A stretch of 64,000 bases of DNA from Buxus sempervirens (lineage: Eukaryota; Streptophyta; Magnoliopsida; Buxales; Buxaceae): NCBI GenBank assembly GCA_947561395.2, contig OX387183.1, positions 9,289,402 to 9,353,401 of the forward strand, written 5' to 3'. Below are positions 28,091 to 56,060 of this stretch, in pieces. A program made the position numbers and the translations under genes. Within the stretch, counting starts at the first letter, position 1, and the number at the start of each line of letters is the position of its first letter. The notes beneath the pieces were generated by a model, which was not told the origin of the DNA, ran no database searches, and worked only from the letters and a program-made list of their open reading frames with translations.

Positions 28091-30716
28091 GTGCTTGACG
28101 GAAAGCACCATCAACATTCACTTTTAGGTACGGCTGTTGAGGATAGATCCAGACGACCTCATTGGGAACTTGCTGATTTTGACCATTTTGCAGCACCGGA
28201 TTGCAACGGATGGTATCAGTTTTGAGCTACTCAAATTCTCTGCAAACAATTGAAATTGATGGAGTAACCTGATCAAAGAAGACCCGATTCCTGTGTTTCC
28301 ATAAAACCCACCCAAAAATTGCTACCAACGTAAGGAAGCCCATCATTTCCATATCAGCATTAGGGATTTTCTGCACAACTAAGAATTTGAACCATTCTAG
28401 TAAGTTTGCCTGTGGGCCAAAGGATTGGAGAGCTCCGCCTAAAACACGAAACCACACGGCTCTTGAGAAAGGACAAGATAACCAAATATGTTCCACCGAT
28501 TCGACATTTTCTTTACAAAGGAGGCAGATGTTATCAATATTTGGGATACGTTGAGATAGCAAACCAGCAGTAGGGAGACCTCCCGCTAGGCACTTCCAAA
28601 CGAATAATTTAATCCTCTGTTGACATCTCAAAAGCCAAATTTTCAACCAAAGGGAATAAGAACTTGTAATTAATCAACCGATATGCAGATGCTCTGAATA
28701 TAAACCCAAAGAAGTAACACTCAAATATCTTTTATCCATACCCAGAGCTGAAGAAATTTGGGTAGAGCAGATTTTTTGAGCAATTGAATGGTTACAAAAC
28801 TGATTTATGAGAGACATATTCCAATTTCCATTATGATTTATGAGCTGGCTCACCTGAGAAAGATCAAATAAGTGGTTGTTCTTCTGCACTTCCAGCTTTT
28901 CTTCAACACCCTTGACCCAATTATCATGCAAAATATTAATATTACTCCCGTCAGCAACTCCTCAAAAACTGCCTTTATCAATCCATTTTTTTGAACTCTG
29001 TAATTGCCTCCAACCATAAGGATTGGGAGGCTGTGCATGAAGCCTTATCAAAAGATGTTGCAGGAAAGTATGAAATCTTCAAAAAATTTGCCCAAAGACT
29101 TTGGTGATTCTGGTCTAGCTACTACGCTGCTTTCAGAACAATGGCCTTTTTCATAAAATCTGAACGCTTGATATTTAGTTTGCCTTGCCTCCAAGAATGG
29201 GAGAGCCTATCCCAGCACAAAGTGTGAATATGCTGACCATCAGGTCCTTTTTTCCAGAAGAACTGCCTTGCCAATTGATCAAATTTATTCAGCACCCCCT
29301 GAGGTAGAAGAAAACAGCTCATTAAATGTATGGGTTGGGAGCTAAGCACTGAGTTTATCAAGTTGGGACGACCCATTTGTGAGAGAACGAGGAGGGACTT
29401 CCAACCAGCTAGTCTTGATGTAATTTTCTGGAGCACTTCATTGCAGTCAGCAAGTTTTGACTTAGTCTTCAACATAGGGACACCTAAGTACTTAAAGTGT
29501 TGATTTGATCTAGAAATATTGAAACTCTTCCTCAATCTGACCTTGCAAACTGCAGGTGTGTTTCTGCTAAAGAGAATGGAAGATTTTTGTCTGTTCAATT
29601 CTTGTCCTGATTTTGAACGATAGCGATAGAGTAGACGAACAAGAAAATGAACCTCACTCTCAGTTGAAAAACCATATAAACTCACATCATCCACATACAT
29701 AATGTGAGTAATAGGTAAACCTCCCCTTAAGATGGCAACTCCCCGAAACCGAACCTCAATCTCTGCTCTATTTGTTGCTGTTGAGAGGACCTGCTAACAT
29801 AAGATAAAAAGGTATAGAGACAGCGGGTCTCCTTGATGCAAGCTCCGTTCAGCATTGAATCTACCCACAGGGGTCCCATTTAAGAGGACACTATATGATA
29901 CTGACGAAACACACCCCATTAGTAACTCTACAACTTGAGTATTCCAGCATACATACCCTTTTGCATATCTTTACTAGCTTTTAATCTCAACTTGTTCTTC
30001 CTCTTACTGAAATAATGGCCAATCTCATGATTAATCAACATATTATCTCTGATGGATCGGCCCGCCACAAATGCCGATTGATGGGGAGATATCATTTCCG
30101 GTAGGAAAGGTTTCATTCTATTGACCAGAATCCTTAAGATAATTTTGTAAACGAAGTTACACAAACTTATTGGTTGGAGATATGAAATTCTTCTAGGTTG
30201 CAGAATTTTTGGAATAAGGAAGATGTATATATGATTCAATTCTGCTAGCATGATGGAAGATTGAAAATATTCTTGGACAACCTTTACAACATCATCTCCT
30301 ACAATGTCGTAGAATCGATGGAAGAAGATGCCTTGGAAGCCATCCAGTCCCGGACATTTTAAAGGTTCATTTTAAAGGTTTCATATTTTTTGTAGTAGTC
30401 CAAATCTCAACTGAATTTGGCACTTGAGAGATAGCTTCATTTTGTTCCATAGATATGACCTGAGAAAGGAGACCTGGCATATCAAGTTCTGAACATTGAG
30501 GTGGAGCTTTAAAAATGTCACTGAAGTAGTGGACAATCAATTTCTCTAGCTCTCTTAGATCATTTGTCTCAGTACCTTCTGGAGTTTTGAGTGAACCAAT
30601 GAAGTTTCTTTGACGCCTTAGTAAAGTGGATTTATGTAATAATGTAGTATTCTTATCACCCTCTTTTAGCCAAGTAACTTGAGACTTTTGGTGCCGAAGT
30701 GGTTCCTGTTGACGAA
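28091..30716 (-). pseudogene. LINE B block 2: reverse transcriptase, zf-RVT, RNase H start
   Basis: On the minus strand: linker WLKEGDKNT at the 5' edge, RT motifs with SLCNFVYKIILRILVNRMKP and ISPHQSAFVAGRSIRDNM (30251-29928), the catalytic MYVDDVSLYGFSTES at 29700, then HFKYLGVPML and AGWKSLLVLSQMGR. The zf-RVT shows NICLLCKENVESVEHIWLSC (28646-28227). RNase H begins KVNVDGAFRQ just before the Copia junction. Frames change many times, so it is inactive, although the YVDD box is intact. Confidence 0.9.
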
Positions 30717-31329
30717 CAGTCGTTTTCCTCTACGGAGGTTTCCTCTTTGGAACCGTCTTGGACAAACCGGTGGACGACACGCGTCCACCTCCCTCTCTCC
30801 TCTTGATCAACGCTTTTAGTCAAACTCCGTTTTTTTGAGCCGCGTTCGTCGAGTGCAAAGTCGAGCCGCGTTTGAAAATAAGAGCCGCGTTCGTTCGCTC
30901 CGGCGGGAAATCAAAATTGCAAAGTCAGAGATGGCCAAAACACAGAGAAGAGAAAGACATGTTATCAGACTTCATCTTCTCTCTGATTCCTCTCTTTATC
31001 TTCATTTCTTGCGTTTCCTCAGCTGAAGCGATCAATCCTCTTCCCTCTGCTGGTGTTTGTATCATCGGCAGTGGCATTGCAGGTTCATCTGTCGCTCATT
31101 TCCTCCGTCGCTACTCCAACGACCATTTGCTTCAGGGCATCGGCGACATCAGAATCTTCGAACGCCATGGAGTTGTCGGGGGGAGAATGGCGACGGTCTC
31201 CATCGCCGGAGACACCTTCGAAGCCGGCGCTTCTATCCTGCACCCCAAGAACTATCACGCCTTGAACTTCACCAAATCCCTTAACCTGCGGGTCAAGAAG
31301 CCGTCTTCTTCCTCTTTCTCGCTTGGCAT
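30717..31329. repeat. Left terminal inverted repeat of the Pack-MULE
   Basis: Matches 44633-44043 in inverse orientation from the element tip through the first exon of the farnesylcysteine lyase gene, ending at CGCTTGGCAT. The only larger difference is in the 5' UTR at about 30840-30905, where this copy has an extra GAGCCGCGTT-type duplication. In the coding part I see a single substitution (GAG versus GCG in the sense strand). Confidence 0.93.
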
Positions 31330-31372
31330 AGAGGAAATTGGTCGATTCTCTTTTGAGGGTTTGGATTCGTAG
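30959..31372 (+). pseudogene. FCLY: Farnesylcysteine lyase first-exon copy, truncated (left repeat)
   Basis: The enzyme oxidatively splits farnesylcysteine released from prenylated proteins. It is FAD-dependent and membrane-linked. Start MLSDFIFSLIPLFIFISC gives a signal peptide. The FAD-binding GVCIIGSGIAGSSVAHFL and the following IFERHGVVGGRM and FEAGASILHPKNYHALNF motifs are clear. Homology to the right-hand copy stops after FSLGI. The frame then runs 14 residues into unrelated DNA and stops at 31372. An upstream ATG (30931, MAKTQRRERH) in another frame overlaps the start and would act as an upstream ORF. It is non-functional as an enzyme because the substrate domain is missing. Confidence 0.88.
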
Positions 31373-31621
31373 CATCCATCGGGAACGTGTCGGGTTAGGC
31401 CTTCGTAAGTTCCGACCGGCTTGGCCGTTCTCGTGCGTGCTGCAACCTGCAAGAGCCAAGCACGATATAAAGCGTCTTTTAACCCCCGCCATTGTCTTTC
31501 CCGCAAAACGAAATTGCAGCATTTCATAAATACCTGCTCGATTCGGAGCTTCCATATACGACGTTGCTCCTCATATCCGCCCTTTCTTTTCGTCTCTGTA
31601 GCAATCGTCTTTGCAGTTAAG
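31330..31621 (+). promoter_or_regulatory. MSH2 5' flank and leader inside the Pack-MULE
   Basis: Sequence between the end of the farnesylcysteine lyase repeat and the MSH2 start codon. A CGATATAAAG box at about 31462-31471 could serve as TATA, and the leader is pyrimidine-rich (CCCTTTCTTTTCGTCTCTG). This suggests that the capture included the native MSH2 promoter region. Activity is unknown. Confidence 0.5.
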
Positions 31622-33486
31622 ATGGACGAAAATTCGCCGGAGCAGAACAAGCTGCCGGAGCTTAAACTAGGTAAAATCCTCTTCTTTTATTGTTCTTCTC
31701 CCTCTTCCGTTATCTACCTATCTGGTTCTTGTTAACTCTATGTTTCAATCCGCGAATTTGTAATGCGATATCCTATTTTACTGTTAGATGCGAAGCAAGC
31801 TCAAGGGTTTATCTCATTCTTCAAAACCCTACCCCATGTAAGCAAGTCCTTCCATTTCATTTTTTTTTTTCACGTCCTTGTTGTGATTATAAAAATGCCA
31901 CTCATATACTCCCCTTTCGTTTGCAGGACCCTAGGGCTGTTCGATTCTTTGACCGCCGGGTGAGCTTGTATTTTAGGCTGGTTACATTTGTTTTTCTCAT
32001 TTTTTTTTTTAGTTTTTATTTCCAATCTGTATGGTTTATTGTTCTTCATTCGTTTGTGTTTTGGATTTGTATTTGAACAAGTACCTTGAAGTGACTATTT
32101 GCTTTGAGAACAGGTCTTCTTTTGTAGATGCTTGCGGGTTTTGTCAGTGAAGACTAAATACAAGGGAAACAACAGGAATTTGCTTTTACCACTTTGAAAC
32201 TCAAATCTATAAAATAAATTGGTGTTTTTTCTGTTTCGCACCTTATTGCTTCTATCCTTTTTTAAACGAAAATATTGCACGAGTATTAAGTATTATTTTC
32301 CTTTGTTGTATATAGGTCTCTTTATGATTTCATTTCCCAATCTTTTATTTTCATTTTTATTCATTTTGTGAATTTGGCATTTTTACACCATTAATAACTA
32401 TTCATCAGTTTCATGTTTCTCCAAATTCTTGTGATTCAACATCTAAATATGCCATCATTTATTTTAATACACATGGGATTTATTCTCAGATTCTCACACC
32501 TTTTATGATATTGAAAGCTTGTTACTGATTTTGTAACTGGGATTCACTCCCTGCAGTGTATGAAGATTTTCCTTTTTGCTGTGGATATCTAGAAGCTTCT
32601 ACGGAGAGAAATAATATTTTTTTTTCTTTTATTTCCCCCCTTTCGGTTTTCCTGCGGTATATCACGAGGCCTGTTGGCCTTTTTGGTGTCCACTGTCCTG
32701 TTATATATTAGTAGTTACACTTGTACATGACCTTAAAGGTGGCAAGACAAAAGGGGTGTTCCACCACATCATCCTGTCTCCACTTGTCTAAATTTACTTT
32801 CTGGGTTTGAATTTGCATCTGGGGCTCTAGGGGCATTGTTGTCTTATGCAGAGTTACTTTCTGATGAAAGCAATTATGGAAACAAAGAAGCTAGAGTAAC
32901 AGAAAAATGTGAGAAATTTTTTTGGATTAGAGATTGTTAATTTACTTAAGTACTGAGTTTGGTAATCAAAAGTTAAAAGGACAGAGATTAAGGTATGTTA
33001 CTGGTGAAACTTAAATTTTCTAATAAAGTCCTTAATCATACTAGTTCATGTCTTCATGAACAAAAGTATTGACGTTTGAGATATACGTCAATATATGGTT
33101 GATTGCATTAAGGTGGAAAATATGTGCCTGATGCTTATTTGACAAGGCTCATGACCTCTTAAAATTTTTTTCCTTTCTCATTTCTTTTTCGATCCTTTCA
33201 TTTGCTGATTTCTCATCATAATGCACTTTGGTCAACGGGAATAAATTCAGTAGCCGATTTTATTATCATATACAGGTTGGATCGAAGCGTAAACGGGCTT
33301 GTGATCCTGACGACATATCTACAGGTGCTGCTCGGGCACAGGTTCTTGCAGGAGTTTTCTGCTTTGCCATTAGAAGAGATGGACTTAAAGCAGGCTCTGC
33401 AACAAGTAAGCAAGTTGAGAAGTGAATTGGAGAAGGATGCGGTAGAAAATACTTGGCTCCAGCAATTCTTCTCATCCCAAGAATAA
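31622..33486 (+). pseudogene. MSH2: MSH2 mismatch-repair gene, internally deleted copy
   Basis: MSH2 pairs with MSH6, MSH3 or MSH7 to recognise DNA mismatches. Exons seen: 31622-31670 (MDENSPEQNKLPELKL), 31788-31837 (DAKQAQGFISFFKTLPH) and 31927-31959 (DPRAVRFFDRR), all with correct GT/AG borders and phases. The terminal exon 33276-33486 follows (VGSKRKRACDPDD, then EFSALPLEEMDLKQALQQV and LEKDAVENTWLQQFF). Everything between, including the mismatch-binding, lever, clamp and most of the ATPase domains, is missing. The last exon has a net 2-base loss near 33334 that shifts the frame after GAARA. The gene cannot give MSH2 activity, but a spliced short RNA is possible. Confidence 0.92.
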
Positions 33487-34602
33487 TGTTTCCTCATCTA
33501 TCTTCTGGAGATTATGTATATCCTTTAGCTGTAAAATTAATGTGTTTGATGTTCGCAGGAAAAGAAATGTTCGGTCTGGTAAGTTGCTTGGTGTTGTCTG
33601 TTTTCGTTTTTATTTTTATTTTTTGATGATACCCGTGCCTCCAAAAACATTGCATCCAGCTGCAGATTCCCTAGTTCAGTGATCTCTGATGGAGAGGGAC
33701 TGCATGAATGCGATGTTTGACATGCTTTCTCTTGCTTTTGATGTTTGTAATAGGGACATATTTACACAGTTACAATCTCTGCTTTCCTGATGTATTTTGC
33801 ATTGTACATGTATTGATATGCAAGGAACGCCTGTTTGACGTGGTACTTGCAGTTTGTTCATGTGTAGTTGAATGGAAAACCGGATGAAACAGATCAAAGG
33901 ATTAAGCATCTGTAACTGTTACAGAAGCCTATAATCTTGAGCATCTGCCATGCTGATTACATCACCTTTGAAAATGGCTTTATGCATCAGTTGGGAGCTG
34001 GTTGTATGAATCTTTAAGGGCCATTTCTTGGGTTCAGCTATGTTCTCAAATTCATGTAAGAGAATCATGGTAGATAAAACCTTCAGACAGCCAACAGAAG
34101 CTCACATTTAAGTGGGGTTGGATTCTCCAATAAAGACATCATATTTATCATGAGAATAAAGATCTTATAATTATGATCTAAGGTTTCAAAGCACAACATT
34201 CTTGTTGTTCCTACATTGCCATTGCTAGGGTTTGTGACCATTTCTGCCAACTATTCAACTTCTTGAAAGCTAGAATCAAAGCTTTGGCTGAACATCACTG
34301 AAACTTTACACATGTTTTTAGCACTTGGTATATGACTAACACATAGACATCCCTCCATGAAACCAGAGGAAAAAATATGTGAAAAAATAACAAGGAATAT
34401 ATACAACTGACAGAAATTTGTATCACTGCATTAATTCTGTTCATGATATTCACAAGTACACCTTCAATCACTTTCTTTACACAGATTACATTCTTAACTA
34501 CACAGAACCTGCAAGAAAATAACCACACGGTTTCATCTGTCATTTGGGTAATGCAAATGAAGTTGGTTATGAATCCAACTTTCATTTTGGTTACTTTACA
34601 AC
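33487..34602. other. MSH2 3' flank inside the Pack-MULE
   Basis: AT-rich sequence probably derived from the MSH2 3' UTR and downstream spacer. No coding sequence, RNA gene or element was recognised up to the foldback element. Confidence 0.4.
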
Positions 34603-34989
34603 AACATACTATTAGAGAGTGTATTTTTTGGGTATCTATATTATTAGAGAGTGTGTTATTACAAAGCTAGAAGAAAAATTTTTGGCATCACACCTTCTAT
34701 TGTCCAGGTACAGAGATGGGGAAAAAGTGAAAAAAAAAGGGCTCAATTTGATTTATCCACTAATTGGAAATTGAATTCAGGATTTTATTAACTTTCTTGC
34801 TAACCAAATTTTAGGCTATCAAATTTTGGAATATCAAACGTATCATACAAAAAGAGCCCTGTTACAGTATTGAGATTAACTGATCTTTTAACTGTCGCAA
34901 AGGTTAAAGTTAATTGGACTAATAATAACCGGATATGCATATTTAAAAAATTAAAAAAAAAGAGCTTAAACAGTCCTCTATTGCATTGT

Positions 34990-36195
34990 TACAAGTCTTG
35001 TCATCTCTTGTTACAAGTCCTCTCAAGCCCTATTACAAGTCCTCACAACCCCAGTTACAAGTCCTATCAAGTCCAGTTACAAGTCCCCACAAGCCCAGTT
35101 ACAAGTCCTCACAACCCCAATTACAAGTCCTGTCAAGCCCTTTTACAAGTCCTCTCAACCCCAGTTACAAGTCCTCTCAAGCCCTGTTACAAGTCCTCTC
35201 AACCCCAGTTACAAGTCCTCACAAGCCCTGTTACAAGTCCTCACAACCCCAGTTACAAGTCCTGTCAAGCCCTGTTACAAGTCCTCTCAACCCCAGTTAC
35301 AAGTCCTCATAAGCCCTATTACAAGTCCTCACAACCCCAGTTACAAGTCCTGTCAAGCCCTTTTACAAGTCCTCTCAACCCCAGTTACAAGTCCTCACAA
35401 ACCCTGTTACAAGTCCTCCGAAGCCCACAACCCCAGTTACAAGTCCTGTCAAGCCCAGTTACAAGTCCTCTCAACCCCAGTTACAAGTCCTCTCAAGCCC
35501 AGTTAAAAGTCCTCACAAACCCTGTTACAAGTCCTCCGAAGCCCACAACCCCAGTTACAAGTCCTCACAAGCCCTGTTACAAGTCCCCACAACCCCAGTT
35601 ACAAGTCCTGTCAAGCCCAGTTACAAGTCCTCTCAAGCCCAGTTACAAGTCCTCACAAGCCCAGTTACAAGTCCTGACAACCCCAGTTACAAGTCCTGTC
35701 AAGCCCTGTTACAAGTCCTCTCAACCCCAGTTACAAGTCCTCACAAGCCCTATTACAAGTCCTCACAACCCCAGTTACAAGTCCTGTCAAGCCCTTTTAC
35801 AAGTCCTCTCAACCCCAGTTACAAGTCCTCACAAACCCTGTTACAAGTCCTCCGAAGCCCACAACCCCAGTTACAAGTCCTCTCAACCCTGTTTCAAGTC
35901 CTCTCAACCCCAGTTACAACTCCTCTCAAGCCCGGTTACAAGTCCTCACAACCCCAGTTACAAGTCCTGTCAAGCCCAGTTACAAGTCCTCACAAGCCCT
36001 ATTATAAGTCCTTACAACCCCAGTTATAAGTCCTTACAACCCCAGTTACAAGTCCTCTCAAGCCCAGTTACAAGTCCTGTCAAGCCCAGTTACAAGTCCT
36101 CACAAGCCCTATTACAAGTCCTGTCAAGCCCTGTTACAAGTCCTGTCAAGCCCTGTTACAAGTCCACTCAACCCCAGTTACAAGTCCTCTCAACC
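34990..36195 (+). repeat. 21-bp minisatellite, long array
   Basis: The unit is close to CCCAGTTACAAGTCCTCACAA. From the span there should be roughly 55 units, with variants CTGTT/TTTTT, CTCTC/CTGTC and occasional 9-bp extra CCGAAGCCC blocks. Since 21 is a multiple of 3 and no frame holds a stop, frames stay open and give long artificial ORFs (PSYKSSQ, PVTSPHN or LQVLSSP heptads). I do not regard these as genes. Confidence 0.93.
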
Positions 36196-36344
36196 CCTTG
36201 ACACTCGAGCGAGCGCAAATCGCCCCCAAACCGCCACTCTCGGGTTTTCTGAGATTGTAGTCTTAAGGCTTGACGCTCGAGCGACCCCAAATCGGCCCAA
36301 AACTGCCACTCTCGGCCCAAAAGGGCTCAATTTGATTTATCCAC
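36196..36344. repeat. Centre of the foldback element, duplicated CTCGAGCGA block
   Basis: Two copies of a 70-80-bp block, with CTTGAC(A/G)CTCGAGCGA, CAAATCG(C/G)CCC and ACTGCCACTCTCGG or the related CCGCCACTCTCGG, lie side by side (36198-36243 and 36269-36316). The segment AAAAGGGCTCAATTTGATTT at 36308 is a copy of the arm sequence at about 34736. Confidence 0.8.
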
Positions 36345-36690
36345 TAACTGGGGTTGTGAGGACTTGTAACAGGGCTTTTGAGGACTTGTAACTGGGGTTG
36401 TGGGCTTCGGAGGACTTGTAACAGGGTTTGTGAGGACTTGTAACTGGGGTTGAGAGGACTTGTAAAAGGGCTTGACAGGACTTGTAACTGGGGTTGTGAG
36501 GACTTGTAACAAGGGTTGTGAGGACTTGTAACTGGGGTTGAGAGGTCTTGTAACTGGGGTTGAGAGGACTTGTAACAGGGCTTGAGAGGACTTGTAACTG
36601 GAGTTGTGAGGACTTGTAGCAGGGCTTGTGAGGACTTGTAACTGGGGTTGAGAGGACTTGTAATAGGACTTGTAACAGGGCTTGACAGGA
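36345..36690 (-). repeat. 21-bp minisatellite, short inverted array
   Basis: Same unit as the long array but in opposite orientation, roughly 16 units. The array can pair with the long array to form a hairpin of about 350 bp in addition to the 390-bp arms. Confidence 0.93.
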
Positions 36691-37334
36691 CTTGTAACAA
36701 TGCAATAGAGGACTGTATAAGCTCTTTTTTTTAATTTTTTAAATATGTATATCCGGTTATTATTAGTCCAATTAACTTTAACCTTTGCGACAGTTAAAAG
36801 ATCAGTTAATCTCAATACTGTAACAGGGCTCTTTTTGTATGATACGTTTGATATTCCAAAATTTGATAGCCTAAAATTTGGTTAGCAAGAAAGTTAATAA
36901 AATCCTAAATTCAATTTCCAATTAGTGGATAAATCAAATTGAGCCCTTTTTTTTCACTTTTTCCCCATCTCTGTACCTGGACAATAGAAGGTGTGATGCC
37001 AAAAATCTTTCTTCTAGCTTTGTAATAACACACTCTCTAATAATATAGATACCCAAAAAATACACTCTCTAATAGTATGTTCTTCGCAGCTATGAGATCT
37101 TAGCATCACTTCCTACCCAACATAGAAATATTAATAAATTCTTTATCCCTTGCACACAAATATTCATTTATTTTTGGAACGGATTGGGATACATGCTGAA
37201 GTTTAAAAAAATAAAAAATTAACACAATAAAGTTATTCTTATTCATTGTCATGCATAAAAGGATGGCACAAAAACTGTCGACGCCTTGCCATGTTCTAAC
37301 AAGTACTTTTCAAAGTGAAGCCATTGGCTTTAAC

Positions 37335-40300
37335 CCTTGCGTGATACAGCTTCCTTAAGCTTCTGGTAGAAATATGTGTTGAAAAAATGATAACTTCCTC
37401 TTGCCCCTTCTGTTAGAGAACCTTGTTGCTGTAGGTACCTAGCAATTGGACCACCAATTATTAAAATGGAACATTCAGTAATAAATTCATGTCTAGTTTT
37501 GTAAAGGCAAAACCATGAAATAATACAGCTGCATACCTCATGAAATGAGATATGCTTTACAATAAAATACTCAGAAGGCACTTGGTTAAAATCTCAAGTT
37601 TAGTAAGGAAGAACAAAGTTAAATACTCCAAAAAAAAAAAAAAAAATAACCTCAGCCGTGTTATTCACTTCTCTTTTTCCTAAGGATTAATTTTTTTTAA
37701 AAAAAATAATGTATAAGAGGTATTGTAAGGAAAGCCCATCCCAAATGGAAACTAATCTTTAACACTGCAGTAATAACAACAAATATAAACAGGAACTGGT
37801 GCTTCACATAGTCAAATATGTCATTGAATTACCCATTTAAATCAAAAAGGAAATGAATACAACTATTGGAATATGAACAATGTCTAAAAGACTTACTGAA
37901 TGTAAAAATTCTTGATAGTTGATGACAAATAAGTTTCAGGGGAAAGGCATTTAATATCTGAGTAACAAAGCTCAACAGCTTCTGGATCATTCCTGTGCGC
38001 ACAAGCAAGGACATTGGTATAAAGCTTGAAATCAAATCCCTAATAAATTAAAAACCAAGCTGTCAAGAAAGGCATATGTGTAAAACCCCGAATTTTCCTT
38101 AAATAATAAATTAAATTAGTAAATAATATTACCCAGAGTTATGATTGATAGAAACATTTTAATATTGTAGGGGGTGATCAACTTAGCGGAGATCCAGAAT
38201 TAGACGCAGATCTGACCGTCCGATCGTGAGATATCGAGGTATGTATTCTGATTGGGCAAGGTGTATAGAAGAGTTGCATGGGAGATACATAGGATCAGGG
38301 GGTATAAATATGTATAAAGAATTAACCTAATTCTTATACATGTATTGTCGCGCGTATTGAAGAGCCGCAAGCGACGACTGTTCGAGCGACCAAGGGAAGA
38401 AGAAGGAGAAGAAGAAGGAAGGGCTGGGCGTGCGTTCATCGTCCAGAGGATTTCTCTATGCAGGAGTTTCGCATTGTGCAGAATAGAGGAGGAGGAAGCA
38501 GCGTATAGAGGTAGGTGACACCGTTTTGGTTTAAATTCGGATTTATCTCTGTTTAATCGCAAACGCATGTTTCTATGATATGTAAAGTTGTATTTAGTTA
38601 GCTAAGCATGTTATAAATACATTAGAATGAGTTTAGACGAGAAAAATCGTGATTTAGAACTGTTTCTGCTCGATTTGGTGAGACCGCCGACCTCGACTGT
38701 GCGAGGCGCTCTTCGGCGATCTTAGGCGCTGGTTAAAGTTTTGAGGACGCCGTGGACCGCGGGACGACGGACCGTGGGCGCTCGAAATTGCACTACCACC
38801 GACTGATGACCGCCCGGAGCGATCCTGAGCGATCCCAGGCGCTCTCAGCAGAATTTCCAATTTTTCATAATTTCGAACCTAAATCAATTCTAAACTATTT
38901 TTAGACAATTTTAATGATTAATTAAGGTACTTTAAGACCAAAATAAACTACCTAAATCCCTGTTTTACAGAAAAACAAATTAGGGAGATATTTAGGACAT
39001 TAGTTGCCAAGTTTTGAAGGTATATGAGAAATGTGATTTTGGAAAAGTCTAACTACCCTTTTATTATCTAAACATTTCTAAATGACATTATAAATCATAA
39101 GACATTATAAAGAGAATTCAGAATCCGAATGACTGAATAATGAAGTGAATGTACAGATATAACCATTATATGCCGCTAGGCACTAACCCTTATAGAATTA
39201 TGATACTTTAGGGAATTTTGGAGTCTAGTGGGCATAGCTGGTTATGGATCCATAGTCGTAGCTAGATAGCTGAGGGATATGTCATTTGGGTTGAGTTACT
39301 CCTATATGCGACGCGCTTCCTTTGCAAGTTAGTTTGTCTGGGAAGGTCCTATGTCTGGAGGGACACCCCGGTGAGCCGCTGGTGATTCCCTGTACATGTG
39401 GATAAGCAACCACCTCCATGTATTGATTTTAGTGCTGCATGCTGGTGGTACATGCCAACTTTGATGGGTACGTGTGCAATAAGTCGGTGACTACGGCTCT
39501 TGTCTAAGCTGCGCTGCATGGGGCTTGAGTATCATTAGTAGCATCGCTCCTAAGTCGCACGGTGGTATAGCAATTGGTTGAGAATCATCTCAAAAGGTTT
39601 ATCTTACTTTGTGAGTCCTACAATGACACTGAAAACATAACACTTGATATGATTACTATTGTGCACGTGCGGGATGCATGTGATTGAGATATTGGTTGGA
39701 TGTGACTGCTTAGTACATCCTGGCAATGCATGGATTATGCTATTGATTTGGCTATTGAGTTCTTATATTAAAACTTGCTGAAAATCATTTCTAGAACTGT
39801 TTATCAAACTGTTTTGTGTTCATGAATGGTATAAATGATTATGCGAGCCTGATTTATCGGTGTAGCTTTATCGTGCATGAAATGTTACTTTGCTTATATT
39901 AACTGTTTAATCATGCATGTGTTACCTACTGAGATATTCGTATCTCACCCTACTTCTATTCCATTTTTTTTCAGCTGATACGAGAGAGAGGGATCTCTTA
40001 GACTTCCAGGGAGAGATAGCCGAGTATTCGCCGGAGGATTATTATTATCCAGACCTTGTCTGAGGTGGATTGATGTTATAGACTTAGCATTTTTAATTGG
40101 TTTATCATCATTTATTGGATTTGATGTATGAGAGAGACAAGAGAGAGTTAGTAACTAGTTCATTCTACCAGACTTTGATACTATTGACTGATGGTCAAGC
40201 TTTATGCTTGTTTGAGGATTTTGATCTACACTTCAGCACATACTTGTTTCCGCACTCTGATAGTTTAATATATGGATTGGATTTACTTTCTTTGGTCTGG

Positions 40301-40507
40301 TATGTTATTGATGTTGTAATTGATATGGGCCAGTAACACCTCGGATTTGGTTGTTGAACTAAATTCGGGTTGTTACAGTAGCGAACCGGGTTCGGGTCGG
40401 GTGCCGGTTTGCACTGACCCGGGTTCAGGGCGTTACATATGTGGCATTATTTTAGAGACAAAGACAAGGGATACCTCGATGGGAAGTATATCTTTGTCTC
40501 CTTAATC
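37335..40507 (-). pseudogene. OTS/ULP1-type SUMO protease fragment, three exons
   Basis: These cysteine proteases remove SUMO from proteins (Arabidopsis OTS1/OTS2 class). Minus-strand exons: 40507-40475 (IKETKIYFPSR), 37992-37897 (NDPEAVELCYSDIKCLSPET, then STIKNFYIQ) and 37438-37335 (YLQQQGSLTEGARGSYHFFN and TYFYQKLKEAVSRKG). Splice sites and phases join correctly. This is the start of the C48 peptidase domain. The catalytic His, Asp and Cys lie downstream in known proteins and are not present, and upstream exons are also missing. A solo LTR fills the first intron. It is a captured gene fragment in the Pack-MULE. Confidence 0.85.
38079..40437. mobile_element. Solo LTR, 2.36 kb, in the SUMO-protease intron
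   Basis: Begins TGTAAAACCCCGAATTTTCC and ends TTCAGGGCGTTACA, with the 4-bp TATG on both sides (38075-38078 and 40438-40441). The wider 8-bp CATATGTG also recurs, so the exact boundary can be read in two ways. CCTACTGAGATATTCGTATC (about 39925) and the GGGACACCCCGGTGAGCCGC block (about 39360) resemble long Ty3/Gypsy LTRs as I recall them. No internal coding region was seen. Confidence 0.75.
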
Positions 40508-41746
40508 CTGAAAAAGGAAATCATGTCATTGGCTATTACTCCCAAAAACTAGATGTGCAACTGGATAAGACAAAGAGAACAAATGAAGATTGAAAGATCA
40601 AAATTCACCATCCAGGTAATTTGTCTTCTAGCTGTGTTGATACTGTAGGCTGGTAATCCTCTTCGTCCACAAGAACAAAAGTCTGGCCCTGTGTCATTAT
40701 GCCAGTATGAATTCAGTCAGTTGCTTAAAGACAATCGTAGTAAAGGAAACCAAACAAAGATGCTTCAGAGCAAAGTCTCAGACTCAAAATACTAGTCTAA
40801 ATAACTCAAAAATGAGAATAATTTTAATATTAGTCTGAATAAAACATTCATGCCAATCTATTGTTCTGAAATTATTAATGCTGTATGCCTTATTTTATAT
40901 ATCTGTCAACAGATTAGTATGTAGCTCAGACCATTTTGCAAGGCATATGTTCATGAAATCAAAGTCACAACCCTGTTAACCAATAGTATATCATGAAAGT
41001 TGATATTCTACTGGACAATATTTTAATCTAAGACAGCAAACAGGGTCATCAACAATTTGAAGACTATCGACCCAAATACATTAATCCAGCAACTTAAATA
41101 GACCTATTTAGCAAGAACTACAGGTAAAAAATAGGTTAATCACAGGAAGACCGGTTAAAAGGCATATGAACTGAGTTTGTATCTTTTAAATTGAGAAAAT
41201 AATCAATGAGATTAAGATGCTAGATCAAATGGGGATTAATGACTGATGCTACTGAAGATTTATGAACAGTGACAGATTCTCAAATCCGTCAGCAATGGGG
41301 ACCTGTGAGAGGTACAAATAGTAAAAGCAATGGACTCATCTTATTGACTCCCATAATAATTGCTTCCACCAGATGTTTTGACTATTTCCACAACATTTTC
41401 ATGTATTCTGCACAACATTCTCAGTAACAAAAGATTGGTGGAAGCAGCAACAAAATGGTTTCAATGTGAGAAATTATTGGCCTGAGAACTAAAGATGATT
41501 AGTTTTTCTCAGCTTATTCAATTTAACGTACAAAACTAAATAGCACCACCCTCTTGAATTGACTTGAATTTTGAATTGAATTCATGAACTGGGTTACACA
41601 GAAAAGATTGAATGAGAAAACAAATCCGGACATCTTTGGCTGCCATTGCTTATAAATTTGTGTTGTGTAATGGACATCAATGGCTTTAATGGTCGTGTGC
41701 AGGCTATGAAAAGTTGAGAGCTTTACACCCCCAGATGAGAATTCCA
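40508..41746. other. Unassigned cargo between protease fragment and lipid-transfer gene
   Basis: AT-rich sequence, probably SUMO-protease intron followed by the upstream region of the lipid-transfer gene. No further exon or element was recognised. Confidence 0.4.
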
Positions 41747-41752
41747 TATAAA
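41747..41752 (+). promoter_or_regulatory. TATA box of the lipid-transfer gene
   Basis: TATAAA in the context CCATATAAAGGGAC, 78 bp before the start codon, which fits a transcription start near 41780. Confidence 0.7.
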
Positions 41753-41829
41753 GGGACTCATCTGCCCAAGGAATCCACAAGAGCAAAAGAAGATACATAA
41801 AGTGATAGACAGAAAGAAAGAAGCTAGAG

Positions 41830-42213
41830 ATGGAGTGTGTGATATCAATGAAGAAGATGGTGCCTGTTTTGATGATTGCACTTCTTGCGAGCATCACGTC
41901 AACCACTAAAGCCCTCGGTTGCTTGGACGTGAATGCAAGCTTACAGCCTTGCCTTGGCATCCTGAAGGGCCGTGGTAATGGTACTCAACCGTCATCGGAG
42001 TGCTGTGCAGGACTCAGAAACATCCAGGACAAGGACGCCAGAGATCCCTCCAGAGTCTGCGAGTCATGCCAATGTTGCAAGAACTTCCTCGCCACTGCTT
42101 ATGAGAAGAATCTACAGCTAACTGTTGACGCTGATTTTGGCATATCTCTTCAACTCCAACAGGGCTGTGGCATCAATCTTGGCTTTGACGTCTCTCTTAC
42201 TGTGGACTGTTAA
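41830..42213 (+). CDS. Non-specific lipid-transfer-like protein
   Basis: A single-exon secreted protein of 127 residues. The signal peptide is hydrophobic (MVPVLMIALLASITSTTKA). The first Met at 41830 and the second at 41848 (MKKM) are both possible, and the shorter form gives a more typical signal. The mature part shows the eight-cysteine pattern C-X9-C-X16-CC-X20-CXC-C-X(about 30)-C-X13-C with two additional Cys (CESCQCC). Such proteins carry lipids in the cell wall or apoplast. A TATA box lies upstream and an AATGAAAA-type poly(A) signal at about 42325. No stop or frameshift is seen, so it may be functional although it sits inside the Pack-MULE. Confidence 0.85.
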   Translation: MECVISMKKMVPVLMIALLASITSTTKALGCLDVNASLQPCLGILKGRGNGTQPSSECCAGLRNIQDKDARDPSRVCESCQCCKNFLATAYEKNLQLTVDADFGISLQLQQGCGINLGFDVSLTVDC

Positions 42214-43648
42214 ATGAAGAAGGCAGTAATGCACCAAGCTTCAAGCATCAGCAGTAGCTTCATACTAGTAGGAGCAGCTGTTGTTAATCTTGTTGCAGTA
42301 GTTACTCTGTAGTAGTAACAGTATTAAATGAAAACGAAGTTGGTGTTTGTTTGTGCTTATTTAGTTTTTCAAGCCTCTCTCTTACTCTCAATTTTCTCCT
42401 ATATTAGTTCTTGCTCTTTGAGAGAGAGATGCTGTCAAGACAATTAGTGTTTTTTCAACATAATAACCAAAAAAATAATTTAAAAAAAAAAAAAACTTCC
42501 TTTCACTTACAATAAGAAAATTTCTTAATGATTAAACAATCAGAGTATTTCAACCCTACACTGGTGGCATAAAGAGCTGCCAGACTGGGAAACATGTGAG
42601 TTAAAGAAGTAAAGAACTGGGCAATCATGTTTAATTTTGTCCATACAACTGAAATTTTCTAATAGCTTCCTTTTCCACAAACAGTCTAGGAGATTTGGGA
42701 TGCTGCAGCTCAAATCTATTCTAAGTACAAAACATAAATAGAAAAAATCAGCTACAGAAGGACATTTCCCAATTTCATTAAGGAAATCCATTAATTACAT
42801 ATTTGCCAATTTGATAGGATGTAGGAGGACTTTATTCTCAAGACTGTAAGTCTATGTTCTCCACTAATCTGATAAATTATAAGGCAATGGTGAAAATAAC
42901 TCATTTCCTTGAGTTACTAAAGGGATTACATTCTAAGTTCAAATAGGAATTATACAAATTCTGGAAAGGTGCCACTTCCAAGCCGGAACATTTCAAGATT
43001 CCTCAAGCTCAAAAGGAAGCATTGGGGACTAAACCATGCTGTTTCTTTTGGGCATCTTCCCTGAAGGATCCCCACAGAATTAAGGCAGCTGAACATAAAA
43101 GCCAGTAACACAGATTCTAAAAGTGTTATAAGAGATCTGTAATAAGTAGAGACTTTTCTTCTGTTTGTACAACCATGAGATAGCCGCTTGTAAACCATCA
43201 TTCTATTTGTCCTTTCCGAAATTATTTTCACTTATTTCATAAATAAAATATTTGTAGTTTAAAAAATGATACTCTCTCTGGAGTACCCTGTTTAGTTACT
43301 TTATTGGAGAATGCCCCCTCATAAGAGATGAACACATGTCATGGGAGATGCAGTTGACTAAATTTATTTCTAATTGATTTATAAGCAAAAATATGACTGA
43401 GATCTAAGAGAGTTATGGTTGGTAACATCAAACCTCTAGAGGCTTGCACTTGCTCAAACTCTTAATTTACAATAACAAGTATCTAAAATTTTGCTCCTCC
43501 AAACAATTGAATCAAGAAATAACAGATTAAAAGCACCACAAAAATTAAACATTAATACAAAAGAACAAAGAGCAGCAAAAACTATTGCAGCAACAACAAA
43601 GGAAAGTAATCAAGAAACATTCAAGTAGAAACAAAAATGGAACCTAAC
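42214..43648. other. Cargo without recognised genes
   Basis: 3' flank of the lipid-transfer gene, then AT-rich sequence up to the farnesylcysteine lyase exon 2. Later exons of that gene were looked for on the minus strand and not found. Nothing else was recognised. Confidence 0.4.
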
Positions 43649-44413
43649 CATGACGAGTTCTTGTATAAGCAACGGAGATAGGCCGGCATAAACCAATTCC
43701 TCCCCCAAAGTCCGACCAGTGAGATTGTATAAACCAGCCCACTTAAGCATCTCATCCACGGTTTGGAAAATGGGACGAGAATCAAAATCCGCATAATATT
43801 TCAGGAAGGAATTCCCTGTATTCTGCATCAATTAGAATCATAAATACACATACAGAGACAGAATCACCCACAACTAACACAGAGAATATGAACAGACCTC
43901 GACGAAGCTCTCCATCCTGAGAAGCGATAATCCGTAACAGAAGAACAGAAGGACCTTATTAGCAAGCGATATAATCTTCTGGGCAAAAGGGAACCTCGAA
44001 TCTGAGTTAAGAGTCTTAAAGACGAAATGGGATCCATCCCAAATGCCAAGCGAGAAAGAGGAAGAAGACGGCTTCTTGACCCGCAGGTTAAGGGATTTGG
44101 TGAAGTTCAAGGCGTGATAGTTCTTGGGGTGCAGGATAGAAGCGCCGGCTTCGAAGGTGTCGCCGGCGATGGAGACCGTCGCCATTCTCCCCCCGACAAC
44201 TCCATGGCGTTCGAAGATTCTGATGTCGCCGATGCCCTGAAGCAAATGGTCGTTGGAGTAGCGACGGAGGAAATGAGCGACAGATGAACCTGCAATGCCA
44301 CTGCCGATGATACAAACACCAGCAGAGGGAAGAGGATTGATCGCTTCAGCTGAGGAAACGCAAGAAATGAAGATAAAGAGAGGAATCAGAGAGAAGATGA
44401 AGTCTGATAACAT
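43649..44413 (-). pseudogene. FCLY: Farnesylcysteine lyase, exons 1 and 2 (right repeat side)
   Basis: Exon 1 (44413-43898) codes the signal peptide, the FAD-binding GVCIIGSGIAGSSVAHFLRR and continues beyond the inverted repeat into LGIWDGSHFVFKTLNSDSRF and YGLSLLRMESFVE, ending at a GT donor. Exon 2 (43822-43649) codes NTGNSFLKYYADFDSRPIFQ and MLKWAGLYNL, with a good AG acceptor and GT donor. Later exons are missing, so the product would lack most of the substrate domain. Because this copy is longer than the left one, the left repeat was probably made by copying this end. Confidence 0.9.
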
Positions 44414-44633
44414 GTCTTTCTCTTCTCTGTGTTTTGGCCATCTCTGACTTTGCAATTTTGATTTCCCGCCGACGAAGATTACGAGGAAAATAAAAGAGCG
44501 AACGAACGCGGCTCAAAAAAACGGAGTTGGCTAAAAGCGTTGATCAAGAGGAGAGAGGGAGGTGGACGCGTGTCGTCCACCGGTTTGTCCAAGACGGTTC
44601 CAAAGAGGAAACCTCCGTAGAGGAAAACGACTG
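44043..44633. repeat. Right terminal inverted repeat of the Pack-MULE
   Basis: Inverse of 30717-31329. It contains the shared promoter-side block TTGATCAAGAGGAGAGAGGG / GGTGGACGCGTGTCGTCCACC (itself palindromic: GTGGACG...CGTCCAC), the 5' leader and the first 120 or so codons of the lyase gene. The near identity of the two repeats points to a recent insertion or recent homogenisation. Confidence 0.93.
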
Positions 44634-45660
44634 GTTGACGAATAACCTTGGCATACTCTGTAGGCATCTTTCCTCTATCCACAGATTCTCATCAGACTGA
44701 CTAGCCATTCTGCTCTGAAGTTGTTCAATATTAAACAGCAGCTCATCTTTCCTCTTATGAATATTCCCTACTCTCTCACAGTTCCAACTTTTGAGATCTC
44801 CTACTAATCTTGTTAGTTTTGATTTGAGTGGCCTTTGAATACCTTCCTGCTGACCTGCCTTTCAAGATTTATAAATTGTATTATGACAAGACTCCTCTTG
44901 TAGCCAAAAAGATTCAAAATGAAAAGGTCTTCGACGCTTTAAATTCTCATGAAGGAGGTTTGTAAATATCATGCAATAATCAGAAGCAACACGCGGTTGC
45001 TAATAAGAGATGGGGTGGGGGAAGAACTCTAGAGCTCCCAATGACATGAAACATCTATCAAGCTTCTCATAAATTTTCCTTCTGCCAAATTGCCCATTGC
45101 TCCACGTAAATTTTGGTCCACTATTCTGGATCTCAGTTAAATTGCAGTTGTGGATGAAGCTTTGGAATCCCTCAAGATGATTTCGAAGAATTGGGAGGCC
45201 CCCTCACTTCTTAGACTGATCAAGCATAGCGTTGAAATATCCACACAGGAGCCATGGATACGAAGTTGGATCGTGAAATTCTCAATAAATGACCATTGCT
45301 CAACTTGCAACTCAAACTTTGAATTTGCATGCACAAGAAGTGTAGCCCATGTCAATCCCTTATAAGATACCTGGAAAAGAATCATCCAATCCGAATGATT
45401 TAGTACCAAAACCTCGCAATCAGATTTCCTCATCAGTGAAATTCCTTCTCGTCTATCAACAGATGGATCACAGAAACGTTATTTTCAAAACCATTCCTGT
45501 GAGCAACCTTATTACATAAAGGAACAGAAGGCAAAGTCTCTGATAACATCACTATATGCGGATGATGTTTCAAAAGTTGGTCCTTCAGATGATCTTGAGT
45601 CATGGCCTGACCAAGGCCATGACAGTTCCAAAAACAAATCTTCATTTCGCCAAGTGCATT
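44634..45660 (-). pseudogene. LINE B block 1: endonuclease region
   Basis: Starts MKICFWNCHGLGQAM at 45645 and continues KHHPHIVMLSETLPSVPLCN, then frames break. Remnants of the later endonuclease (KVSYKGLTWATLLVHANS region, FKLRSFGQKFTW-type sequence near 45120-45060) are visible. The block ends at the Pack-MULE duplication, where the RQQ linker to the reverse transcriptase begins. Confidence 0.8.
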
Positions 45661-46913
45661 TCGTATGGGAAGGCAATACAAGAGGGCAATCTATCCAGAT
45701 TGTGGCATGCTCGAAGGTCCAAGATTGTAAGGTTCTCTAGTTTCGCAATGGAGTCCGGTAATTCCATGATTCTAGAAATCCCTCGAAGGCTAAGGTACTT
45801 GAGGTGTTTCTGGGTCTCCAAACCCTTCATGAATTCGTCATCCACTACCTCGATATGATGAGTAGTCGATTTCTGCCATCTTCCCAAGTGAAGAACTATC
45901 ATATTTCTCGCATTTGACAGCCACTGACGGTCAAGTTTTAAGTACTGCTCGTTTACATTGAACAGTGTCAGCAAATCTTCGGGTTTTGGAATTTCTTTTT
46001 CTACTTGTTTCTGCTGAGAAGTTCCGGATCCTCCTTTGTAGTCCTTGGATACCAAGCATGCACGGCCGGATGACGAGAAACTAGTCGGCGGTGTTGCCTT
46101 CGTCATATCAAAGTCAAAGAAAGCTTTTTCGGCAGCTGAGATCAACATGCGACGGATCCAGGGATGCATTGTACAGCTACTAACACTGGGGCTCAGGTTT
46201 TCATTGTGGGGTTTGATCATGCCCTTTCTTATCAGCTCCTGGAAGACGTGTTCTCCTTCTTCTTCTGCAGTCTTATTATCTTTGGCGGTTACAAAGCCTT
46301 CTCCGATCCACCAGTAGATTAAAGTTCTCTTCTTTATAACCGTGTTGTCGGTGAAGATGGAGAAGCAGAGCAAGCAGTCCTTCAAGCGCTGTTCGAGGAC
46401 TTCGTAACTCGAAGTAAGACTAGTGATGGCATAGCTTGTAAGAATATACTTTTCCATGCCATGCTTCTGCCAATATTCTGATGCTGCTTTTGTAGCTTGA
46501 TCCTTGGATGCTGGACCTGCTGGCGGCTTGTCGGTTTTCTGAGGGGGCAGTTCTTTGGTTTTCGAATGAATGGTGGACAGTTGATCGTTTATGATTTCAA
46601 TTTTTTCTCTAATTCTGTTAAGATTGGATTTTAATTTTTCCAAAGGCATTTCCTCACTTGAATCGCGATTCTTGGAGACACCAACTCGGATTTCTTGTAC
46701 CAATTCTCTGAATGTCAAGTTCATTCTGTCTTCCCACACCTGGACACTGGGCAAGATGGGTTTCATATCTTCAAGCCCATCCTCTACAGACTTGAACAAT
46801 TCCTTTATCTCACTGTTAGTGTTGTCGTCGACAATGGCAATACTTCTCTTCGCCTCGCTCAGCCAACCCTGCAAAATCGGCATGGCTGCTTCTGGATTCC
46901 TCTGGACCGGCAT
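45660..46913 (-). pseudogene. RPP13-like-4-type resistance protein lacking the NB-ARC core, LRR cut by LINE B
   Basis: Start MPVQRNPEAAMPILQGWLSE at 46913, preceded by an AG splice acceptor (TTGTGCAG), so a 5' UTR intron is likely. The N-terminal helical region is coiled-coil-like (NRIREKIEIINDQLSTIHS). There is no P-loop, kinase-2 or GLPL. The protein goes straight to the winged-helix ARC2 block (LEQRLKDCLLCFSIFTD, LIYWWIGEGFVTA, EHVFQELIRKGMI), then an LRR start (HLKYLSLRGISRIMELPDSI, LENLTILDLRACHNLDRLP). The frame is open for more than 400 codons and ends a few residues inside LINE B. Absence of the core looks ancestral rather than a local break, as no frame damage accompanies it. Confidence 0.78.
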
Positions 46914-47013
46914 TTTCTGCACAACTGAGAAAACACAAATGAGTTCGTCAGTAAAAGCAAGACGATGAATCAACAAATTCTCTAAATCAAGAAAAATAAT
47001 AGAAGTCTACAAC

Positions 47014-54254: not shown

Positions 54255-56060
54255 ATTACAAGGCCAAAGGCTTTAGGAAATTTTTTCTGCAGACAATACA
54301 TCCCAGGAAGTGGAGGCAAAGCCTGAAATTGTTCTCTTTGAGTTGAGGAGGTAGATGGTATTCCTTATTTCTTCCTCATCTACAAATCTAATTAAATCAA
54401 GTTTATCATCTTCACTGACAACATTTCCTATAAATCTCACTTCCTGATTATCCTCTAGGTGTTGGTCATCTTGGTAGACTTCCGAGAAGTGGTTGATAAA
54501 GCATTTTTCAATTTCCTCAATATCAGTGATGCTTTCATTGTTTTCATCCTTAATAGTTACAATTTTATTCCTCTGTCTACGGGCCATGGTAGTGACATGA
54601 AAAAACTTGGTATTAATGACACCCTCATTAAGCCACTTGCACCTTGATTTCTGAGCCCACAAAGTCTCTTGTTGTTTAAGAACATGGAAATATTTAGTTC
54701 TAAGGTTCTGTTCTAGAGCATTAAGGGTGGGCTCATTGGAGTTTTCACTTCTACTCTGGACATCTTTCAGTTGATGGAACAGACTAGTAGCTTTGGTATG
54801 GAGGTTCCCTATATGATCTTTGTTCCATTTTTTAAACCTTTTCCCCAACCTTTGAAGCTTATCATTTAGGGTATTCAAGCCCACCCAGAATTTTCTTTGT
54901 TCCATTCTGACTCAATCACCTGATTACACTCTTGTTCCTCCATCCAAAAAAATTCAAAACTAAAAGGTTTTTCGTTCAAAGGTTTAGGAGGATTGGTCTT
55001 GATAATCATGGGACTATGAACAGACCCCAATATCGGCTCTTGGATGACCACTATGTTAGGCTTTTTCAAAAACCATTCAGAGTTACGAAATGCCCTATCC
55101 AATCTTTCTCGGATTCTACCAAGCCCCACTCTCCCATTATCCCAAGTGAAATTTAACCCTTTCGGGTGGAGCTCCATAAGATCACAATCATTAACCATAA
55201 CATGAAAGAATTCAGATTGAGAAATTCTAATGCTTTTACCTCCCTTTTTTTCCTTGTTGGAGATGACAGTGTTGAAGTTACCCATCATAATCCACGGTTT
55301 CAATTGGGACTCTGCTATGCTTTTTATTTGGCTCCATTGTTGTCTCTGAATGGTGAATATGTGGCTGGCGTGTATGAAAGTGATGCATACCTCCCTTTGT
55401 GATCCCTCATAGAGTCTTAGGTGAACCATCCACGAATTATGCTGCACAACTTCTAAGTGTACAGAGTCATCTCACAATAACCAGAAACCACCTAAAAGGC
55501 CTTGGGAAGCAATCCAAAAAAAGTTAGTGAAACCAAATTTCCTAATACTTTTCTCTGAGATTTTGTCGGAAGCCATTGTCTTAGATAGCAGTATTAGGTT
55601 GGGCTTAAGATTCCTAGACAGGAACCTAAGGTACTGTTTGGTCGAGGGGCGCCCAATTCCCCGACAATTCCATGCTAGAATGTTCATGGAGGGAAGTTTT
55701 TGTGCTTGAAGGCACAGCTAGACTGGGGCTCAAAAAAACCAAGAGTGCTTTTTGAAGAATTTTGCCAAACCTGATTTACCTGACTTTCTTCTGTTCTCTG
55801 GTCCTTACCAGAGCTTTCACTTACACAATTGAGTTTTCTCTTCTTTTCAACTGCCACTTCCTCCTTCCCCTTTATCTGCATTCCGGGCTGTCTGCAACTA
55901 GTTGATCCTTTTGTTGAAGATTTTTTGTTATGCCTGCTCTTCCTTTCCCTATTTTGGTTTGGTTGCTTCTGGGTAGAGATAAAGTTTCCGATTGGCATAT
56001 GGTTTAAAGATAAGTGGGGGCCTGAGGTAACGGTAATACAAGTTGGGTTGGGCTGATAGT
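54255..56060 (-). mobile_element. LINE D, inverted 5' part: ORF1 end and endonuclease
   Basis: Minus strand, 5' to 3': ORF1 C-terminus (RKSRHNKKSSTKGS ... CAFKHKNFPP, 55998-55684), the endonuclease start MNILAWNCRGIGRPSTKQYL (55687), GNFNTVISNKEKKGG, LNFTWDNGRVGLGRIRERLD, then the linker LWAQKSRCKWLNEGVINTKF and KCFINHFSEVYQDD, ending near EEEIRNTIYLL at about 54345-54310. ORF1 and ORF2 overlap slightly at 55684-55687. The point at which it stops is the point at which the sense part at 56100 begins, as expected if both come from one LINE insertion. Confidence 0.85.

Follow-up and report, generated by a model that had tools for sequence, protein, structure and literature searches.

The window analysed here is a 64-kb stretch of the genome of Buxus sempervirens (GenBank assembly GCA_947561395.2, contig OX387183.1, here C3, at C3:9289402-9353401). 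A block of 13,917 bp at window positions 30717-44633 lies inside a long interspersed nuclear element (LINE), and the evidence supports its assignment as a non-autonomous Pack-MULE, a Mutator-like element (MULE) carrying gene copies, that is unusually long and composite. In a self-comparison of the window, the tip CAGTCGTTTTCC starts at 30717 and its inverted copy at 44633. The inverted ends (30717-31329 against 44633-44043; 613 and 591 bp) are 94.5% identical over 615 columns. Directly outside each tip stands an exact copy of GTTGACGAA, which occurs nowhere else on the window plus strand; the chance of a 9-bp match at exactly those two positions is about 4^-9. Long terminal inverted repeats (TIRs) and a target duplication of about 9 bp, both typical of MULEs, are thus present as stated in the original prediction. 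The ends and the host sequence comprise the following features:

30708..30716, no strand: left copy of the target duplication GTTGACGAA; a single copy is present in the joined flank that matches the LINE paralogues
30717..30922, plus strand: left outer TIR, the first 180 bp or so being common to many elements
44450..44633, minus strand: right outer TIR, from the comparison of the ends
44634..44642, no strand: right copy of the target duplication GTTGACGAA, from the comparison of the flanks
29122..29793, minus strand: reverse-transcriptase part of the host LINE (RVT_1, 1.9e-4, 21.6 bits, below the cut-off of 29.6); the frame runs over the joint

The 613-bp repeat is real, but it is not TIR throughout: only about 0.2 kb of it is true TIR, and about 407 bp at both ends is captured exon sequence. 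Leaving aside offset deletions in the outer stretch, the comparison of the two ends over 539 sites yields 2 substitutions, one among the 407 exon sites and one among the 132 outer sites.

The host element is an L1-type LINE. Once the block and one 9-bp copy are taken out, ...EYAKVIRQQEPLRHQKSQVTWLKEGDKNTT... runs through the joint on the reverse strand, confirming that the reading frame is restored there, although the LINE carries other frameshifts and stops. The joined 400-base flank was compared to the whole genome (676.5 Mb in 247 contigs of a single assembly). Six matches were obtained: the two halves in the window, one fragment of 63 bases, and three uninterrupted copies of the LINE:

C3:9106010-9106409: 94% identity, positions 1-400 of the joined flank
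C3:9578692-9579095: 91% identity, positions 2-400
C8:21574650-21574947: 92% identity, positions 107-400

By sequence, these three copies are paralogous empty sites, and their agreement with the joined flanks shows that the insertion was precise. The two copies on C3 lie about 214 and 259 kb from the element. As the analysis draws on one assembly and no reads, an assembly error joining unrelated stretches was considered. However, the window holds no N base, the 9-bp duplication is exact, both joints fit the uninterrupted LINE paralogues, and the internal joints of the left part recur in an element on C15 described below, all of which makes such an error highly improbable.

The interior of the block is a mosaic of pieces with matches elsewhere in the genome, ordered as follows:

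30923..31329, plus strand: captured prenylcysteine-lyase exon, inner part of the left TIR, cut off within the exon; 96.6% to C4:21300918-21301323, 1/407 differences from the right copy
31329..31344, minus strand: inner, opposite-facing MULE tip (reverse complement of CGACCAATTTCCTCTA) within a 42-bp filler (31330-31371); 16/16 identical to the outer tip at C15:6950589
31372..32794, plus strand: MutS-type gene, 5' part with introns; 96.6% to C9:45345809-45347225 (MutS_I, MutS_II and MutS_III in the C9 gene)
32792..32883, plus strand: MutS-type gene, 92-bp middle piece; 100% to C9:45348173-45348264
32880..34169, plus strand: MutS-type gene, 3' part and sequence beyond the gene; 96.3% to C9:45354647-45355933 (MutS_V in the C9 gene)
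34165..34605, plus strand: piece with matches at C1, C4 and C10 (92.6-95.3%)
34599..37084, no strand: palindromic module with tandem arrays, unclassified; arms 34603-34945 and 36740-37081 differ at 3/342 positions; common to elements on C14 and C15
37085..37338, no strand: flank of the palindromic module, by sequence match also in the C14 and C15 elements
37335..38078, minus strand: gene piece from C6, first half; 98.3% to the C6 locus (L059)
38079..40437, plus strand: nested solo long terminal repeat (LTR; TG...CA) with the 4-bp duplication TATG on both sides; bounds from genome copies
40438..41160, minus strand: gene piece from C6, second half; 98.5% to the C6 locus (L059)
41157..42426, plus strand: whole lipid-transfer-protein (LTP) type gene with about 0.67 kb of upstream DNA; 93.0% to C4:21295733-21297004
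41830..42213, plus strand: LTP-type reading frame, 127 aa, open (Pfam LTP_2, 3.3e-6)
42427..42624, no strand: 198-bp filler without a match in the genome search
42625..43417, no strand: piece matching C8:43292886 and C21:32969075 (96%)
43420..44449, minus strand: prenylcysteine-lyase gene, 5' part, next to the right TIR; 96.7% to C4:21300295-21301323, two exons by eye

The prediction that the block holds parts of at least four unrelated genes is borne out by these matches on C4, C9, C6 and C8/C21. As in other Pack-MULEs, host gene copies lie between the TIRs while their sources persist elsewhere (on C4, C9 and C6). The three MutS-type pieces, which by an N-terminal motif probably stem from MSH2, are collinear with C9:45345809-45355933, about 0.95 and 6.4 kb of that locus being skipped. 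Five joints display exact overlaps of 3, 4, 1, 4 and 1 bp, and three others fillers of 2, 42 and 198 bp. Overlap lengths were determined by exact inspection; at two joints where BLAST edges gave 4-5 bp, the exact value is 1 bp.

The C4 locus, with Pfam matches to Prenylcys_lyase (PF07156) and to LTP families, bears on a different explanation, namely that the block is a segmental duplication or an old gene cluster merely edged by inverted repeats. The lyase and LTP genes are indeed neighbours on C4. However, the LTP and lyase pieces do not keep the relative orientation that they have on C4, the source matches are spread over several contigs, short overlaps mark the places where pieces of one gene were put back together, and the LINE paralogues carry no interruption. 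We assign this explanation next to no probability. Lyase and LTP might have been captured in one event from the C4 neighbourhood, where they are neighbours, yet they are inverted relative to each other and unequally diverged in the block (34/1029 for lyase and 72/1260 for LTP).

The LTP-type gene had been singled out as looking intact. Its 127-aa frame is open, but it displays no sign of constraint, since dN/dS against the C4 relative is 0.77 and the frame also stays open in many neutral simulations (from 35% with 29 substitutions up to 57% with 15). No sign of purifying selection on the frame was detected. Compared to the C4 relative, the copy has two extra cysteine codons. A protein-database search with the frame yielded no match.

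The gene piece from C6 is contiguous at C6:49838193 and split by the solo LTR in the block. As the insertion point falls within unbroken sequence at the C6 locus, the solo LTR arrived after the capture. Same-strand pairs of copies of this LTR occur 7.2-7.3 kb apart on C22, C11 and C14 among the 40 of 5693 genome candidates that were scored. Without the solo LTR (2,359 bp) and its 4-bp duplication, the element has a length of 11,554 bp. Of the two other transposons predicted inside the block, the solo LTR was thus recovered; the palindromic tandem-array module is real and common to the C14 and C15 elements, but its class was not identified. Pfam matches in frames of the tandem arrays (Gag_p30 below the cut-off; DUF3888 just above it, with no stretch passing alone) were dismissed as repeat artefacts. 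By a motif, the C6 piece may be ULP1/OTS protease-like; Pfam and PDB searches with a 33-aa peptide gave no support for this name. Longer stretches of the same C6 gene occur at C6:49660062, C6:49666635, C11:40459495 and C8:9764141 in loci related to a 3-kb MULE, and each of them lacks 185 bp that the window copy retains. This pattern suggests repeated capture of one donor gene.

Related TIRs with target duplications of their own occur elsewhere in the genome. We examined the flanks of 15 convergent tip pairs, a part of those in the genome pattern list. Nine pairs (the window element included) displayed exact 9-bp duplications, one matched at 8/9 positions, and five did not match. Besides the window element, these pairs are:

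C15:6950589-6977002: exact duplication ATCAATCTC, 26,414 bp
C14:34695642-34709786: exact duplication, 14,145 bp
C1:10956417-10983371: exact duplication, 27-kb span
C1:20399213-20442403: exact duplication TTGAAGAAA, tips 43,191 bp apart
C11 element of 3,031 bp and three elements of about 1.4-1.5 kb: exact duplications
C1:19782297-19794518: duplication at 8/9 positions, 12.2-kb span
C8:23026804-23036363, C10:32769763-32775493, two copies of one C1 pair, and C19:11590854-11634381: flanks not matching

Two of these spans overstate the size of the element. Most of C1:10956417-10983371 is an LTR retrotransposon of about 23.4 kb, whose LTRs are 99.4% alike and which sits inside a Pack-MULE of about 3.6 kb; a 27-kb transposition was therefore rejected. 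At C1:19782297-19794518, about 5.2 kb of the 12.2-kb span belong to a nested Gypsy element.

The left 6.6 kb of the window element is common to the C15 element. Window positions 30717-34945 are shared at 97.5% and, past an interruption of 15.4 kb, the palindromic module follows up to 37338. The internal joints of the left part recur there. As they occur at another site with a duplication of its own, these joints are old and have reached a second location. The C14 element shares the palindromic module and its flank up to 37338. Past the point equal to 37338, the C14 and C15 elements agree at 97.1% over 798 columns (starting in the shared flank) while the window element departs, so that its joint to the C6 piece looks derived.

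The 15.4-kb interruption of the module in the C15 element contains a hAT transposase frame and may be either a nested insertion or captured cargo. Within it, at C15:6966001-6973100 (L039), the hAT frame is open over 659 aa, and pieces resembling ribosomal protein L35 and prohibitin genes were noted by eye. A piece of a DCD-domain gene lies near the other end (L046:6709-7800), and a tandem array of units of about 1.2 kb, 98-99% alike, occurs at C15:6957774-6965040 (L045) inside the 26.4-kb span.

In the exon part of its left end, the window element differs from the C15 element at 8/403 sites and in the adjoining block at 19/3264 (Fisher p = 0.0067), while its own two ends differ there at 1/407. 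As the exon part is more diverged from C15 than the adjoining block and yet near-identical between the ends, copying of one end from the other, after the element parted from C15, is the simplest reading. Lengthened ends occur in relatives as well. On C1, lengthened TIRs of 1,056 bp at both ends (98.6%) consist mostly of lyase sequence. In the C11 element, the right end has an inverted copy of 401 bp that lie inside the left end, and a relative on C6 still keeps gene sequence at the corresponding right-hand position. The C15 element ends in two TIR subfamilies, its low-coordinate end being 88.7% identical to the TIR of the C11 element over 151 bp and the other end window-like. Plant substitution rates are 6.5e-9 to 1.3e-8 per site and year. 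At such rates, the divergence between the window ends (2/539) would correspond to about 0.14-0.29 million years, and that between the left block and C15 (24/3862) to about 0.24-0.48 million years.

No internal tip other than that at 31329-31344 was found in the window element. This inner tip recurs within the C15 element and, in the C14 element, at the right TIR's inner edge, as a remnant between fused neighbours would. Mobile mini-MULEs at the ends of the C14 element and of its C4 relative were considered but received no support: the C4 copy shares the same 9 bases beyond the inner tip with C14.

The long TIRs, the exact duplication, the uninterrupted LINE paralogues, the cargo matched on other contigs, and related TIRs with duplications of their own all agree with the predicted Pack-MULE. 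We consider it likely that the block is a young, non-autonomous composite Pack-MULE that inserted into the L1-type LINE after gathering cargo in several rounds and copying one end to the other, with the transposase supplied in trans. Two processes would have added pieces: template switching while broken MULE copies were repaired, and the fusion of adjacent MULE insertions whose outer tips then worked as a pair. The inner tip would be the remnant of a fused neighbour. The long TIRs would have arisen when one end was copied from the other, the copying running inward into the captured exon. A MULE transposase acting in trans may then have moved the resulting element, with the LTP gene as a passenger. 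The inner tip, the hybrid ends and the shared modules would fit the fusion of neighbouring insertions; template switching is needed in addition, because fusion alone gives neither pieces from several contigs nor joints inside one gene.

No transposase was detected in the nine frames of the element scanned with Pfam (the 127-aa LTP frame and eight with 150 aa or more), as is usual for Pack-MULEs. The genome contains 1051 candidates for the MULE transposase domain PF10551; 150 were scored, all of them above the cut-off, and none of the 150 lies in the element. Many genes could thus serve as a source of transposase. The 145 bp at window positions 43273-43417 are found again, at a distance of 1.4 kb, near MULE transposase domains at C12:42532135, C14:1465869 and C14:36221951 (open frames of 843 aa), and the cargo may include a fragment of a MULE gene.

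Several observations weigh against this reading or against parts of it. Tip fusion alone does not account for DNA from several contigs, and the short overlaps and fillers lend only modest support to template switching. The genome searches made gave no second copy of the full arrangement, only the left part being present at two sites; part of the block could therefore have formed in place. The four pairs on C8, C10 and C1 (two copies of one pair) lack matching flanks. A transposase gene with the same ends was not recovered: although the domains are abundant, no autonomous partner with these ends was identified, and the C19 pair, which encloses a transposase domain, has unlike flanks.

Growth in place would mean that a smaller MULE entered the LINE and that later gap filling copied other loci between unmoving ends. 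Such an origin without transposition has been argued for most single-copy animal Pack-TIRs (PMC8277862), the right half (37339-44633) was not found at a second site in the same order, and the pieces are unequally diverged from their closest loci (0.011 to 0.060). On the other hand, C15 also has the left 6.6 kb and its internal joints, at a different site and with an exact duplication of its own, so that at least the left part existed earlier in mobile or copied form, and the two long TIRs are nearly identical. We regard growth in place as unlikely; it is likely that the whole 13.9-kb block moved as one unit, as the composite Pack-MULE described above.

The original prediction held that Pack-MULEs normally measure a few kb. 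This describes their usual size but not a limit. According to a review, none of a 2004 set of rice Pack-MULEs exceeded 7 kb and most had 1-2 kb (PMC6431247), while a later rice set spans 300-15,000 bp (PMC8903248). The length of 13.9 kb is therefore extreme but within range. Like Pack-MULEs of rice and other plants, the window element has TIRs, a 9-bp duplication, copied gene pieces with introns, and no transposase found. Unlike the usual ones, it reaches 13.9 kb (11.55 kb without the solo LTR), draws its cargo from several contigs, carries a whole gene with upstream DNA, and holds a captured exon inside its TIRs. Large MULEs with extra frames (over 8 kb) have been described in barley (PMC9168764).

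For Pack-CACTA and other Pack-TYPE elements, Catoni and co-workers proposed that two neighbours are used as one while the internal TIRs are deleted or mutated (PMC8903248). The inner tip and the hybrid-ended C15 element fit that model; however, fusion there captures one local stretch, whereas the window element belongs to the MULE superfamily and has an interior pieced together from several loci. For animal Pack-TIRs, the FoSTeST or gap-filling model also invokes template switching at short overlaps (PMC8277862), as proposed here. Those elements differ from the window element, which is of a plant MULE family and has many donors on other contigs and long TIRs. Captured coding pieces inside terminal inverted repeats are known from Turmoil-1 of C. 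elegans (PMC2572040), where two gene pieces are involved, compared to an exon of one gene and a large composite interior here. MULEs with multiple or tandem TIRs and extra TIR sequence near the ends occur in tomato, rice, maize and Arabidopsis (PMC3310237); the extra tip of the window element is 16 bp, opposite-facing, and located at the inner edge of one TIR. Searches of open-licence PMC papers, mostly at the level of the beginnings of abstracts, gave no description of Pack-MULEs with hybrid ends or of Pack-MULEs above 15 kb, which is weak evidence of absence.

The young MULE series of this genome may, tentatively, display how giant gene-carrying elements are made: by fusion and by rewriting of ends, which brings exons into TIRs, yielding composites of more than 10 kb, some with ends of two subfamilies, that transpose with exact 9-bp duplications. 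If so, the usual size limit would be one of searches and not of elements. Since one surveyed rice set ends at 15 kb (PMC8903248), scans of this kind could overlook composites like the 26.4-kb C15 span. The way in which unlinked genes enter plant DNA transposons remains under discussion, and a 2026 review allows for a mechanism yet to be discovered (PMC13317346). Young relatives in one genome keep the joints, the source loci, the inner tip and the unequal ages along one element, and fusion, template switching and end copying can therefore be tested copy by copy.

A resistance-gene sequence (WH_DRP and LRR matches) at 45642-47006 on the minus strand directly adjoins the LINE that holds the MULE, which in turn holds the solo LTR. 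A whole gene with its upstream DNA, and not just a fragment, is thus carried beside resistance-gene sequence. Together with the LINE paralogues on the same contig, this sequence perhaps belongs to a duplicated resistance-gene cluster. At window positions 1305-2198 (plus strand), an open frame of 297 aa (stop to stop) displays matches to a resistance-protein winged helix and to FKBP_C, possibly as a fusion or a pseudogene. A tRNA-Glu (TTC) is predicted at 54707-54784 on the plus strand.

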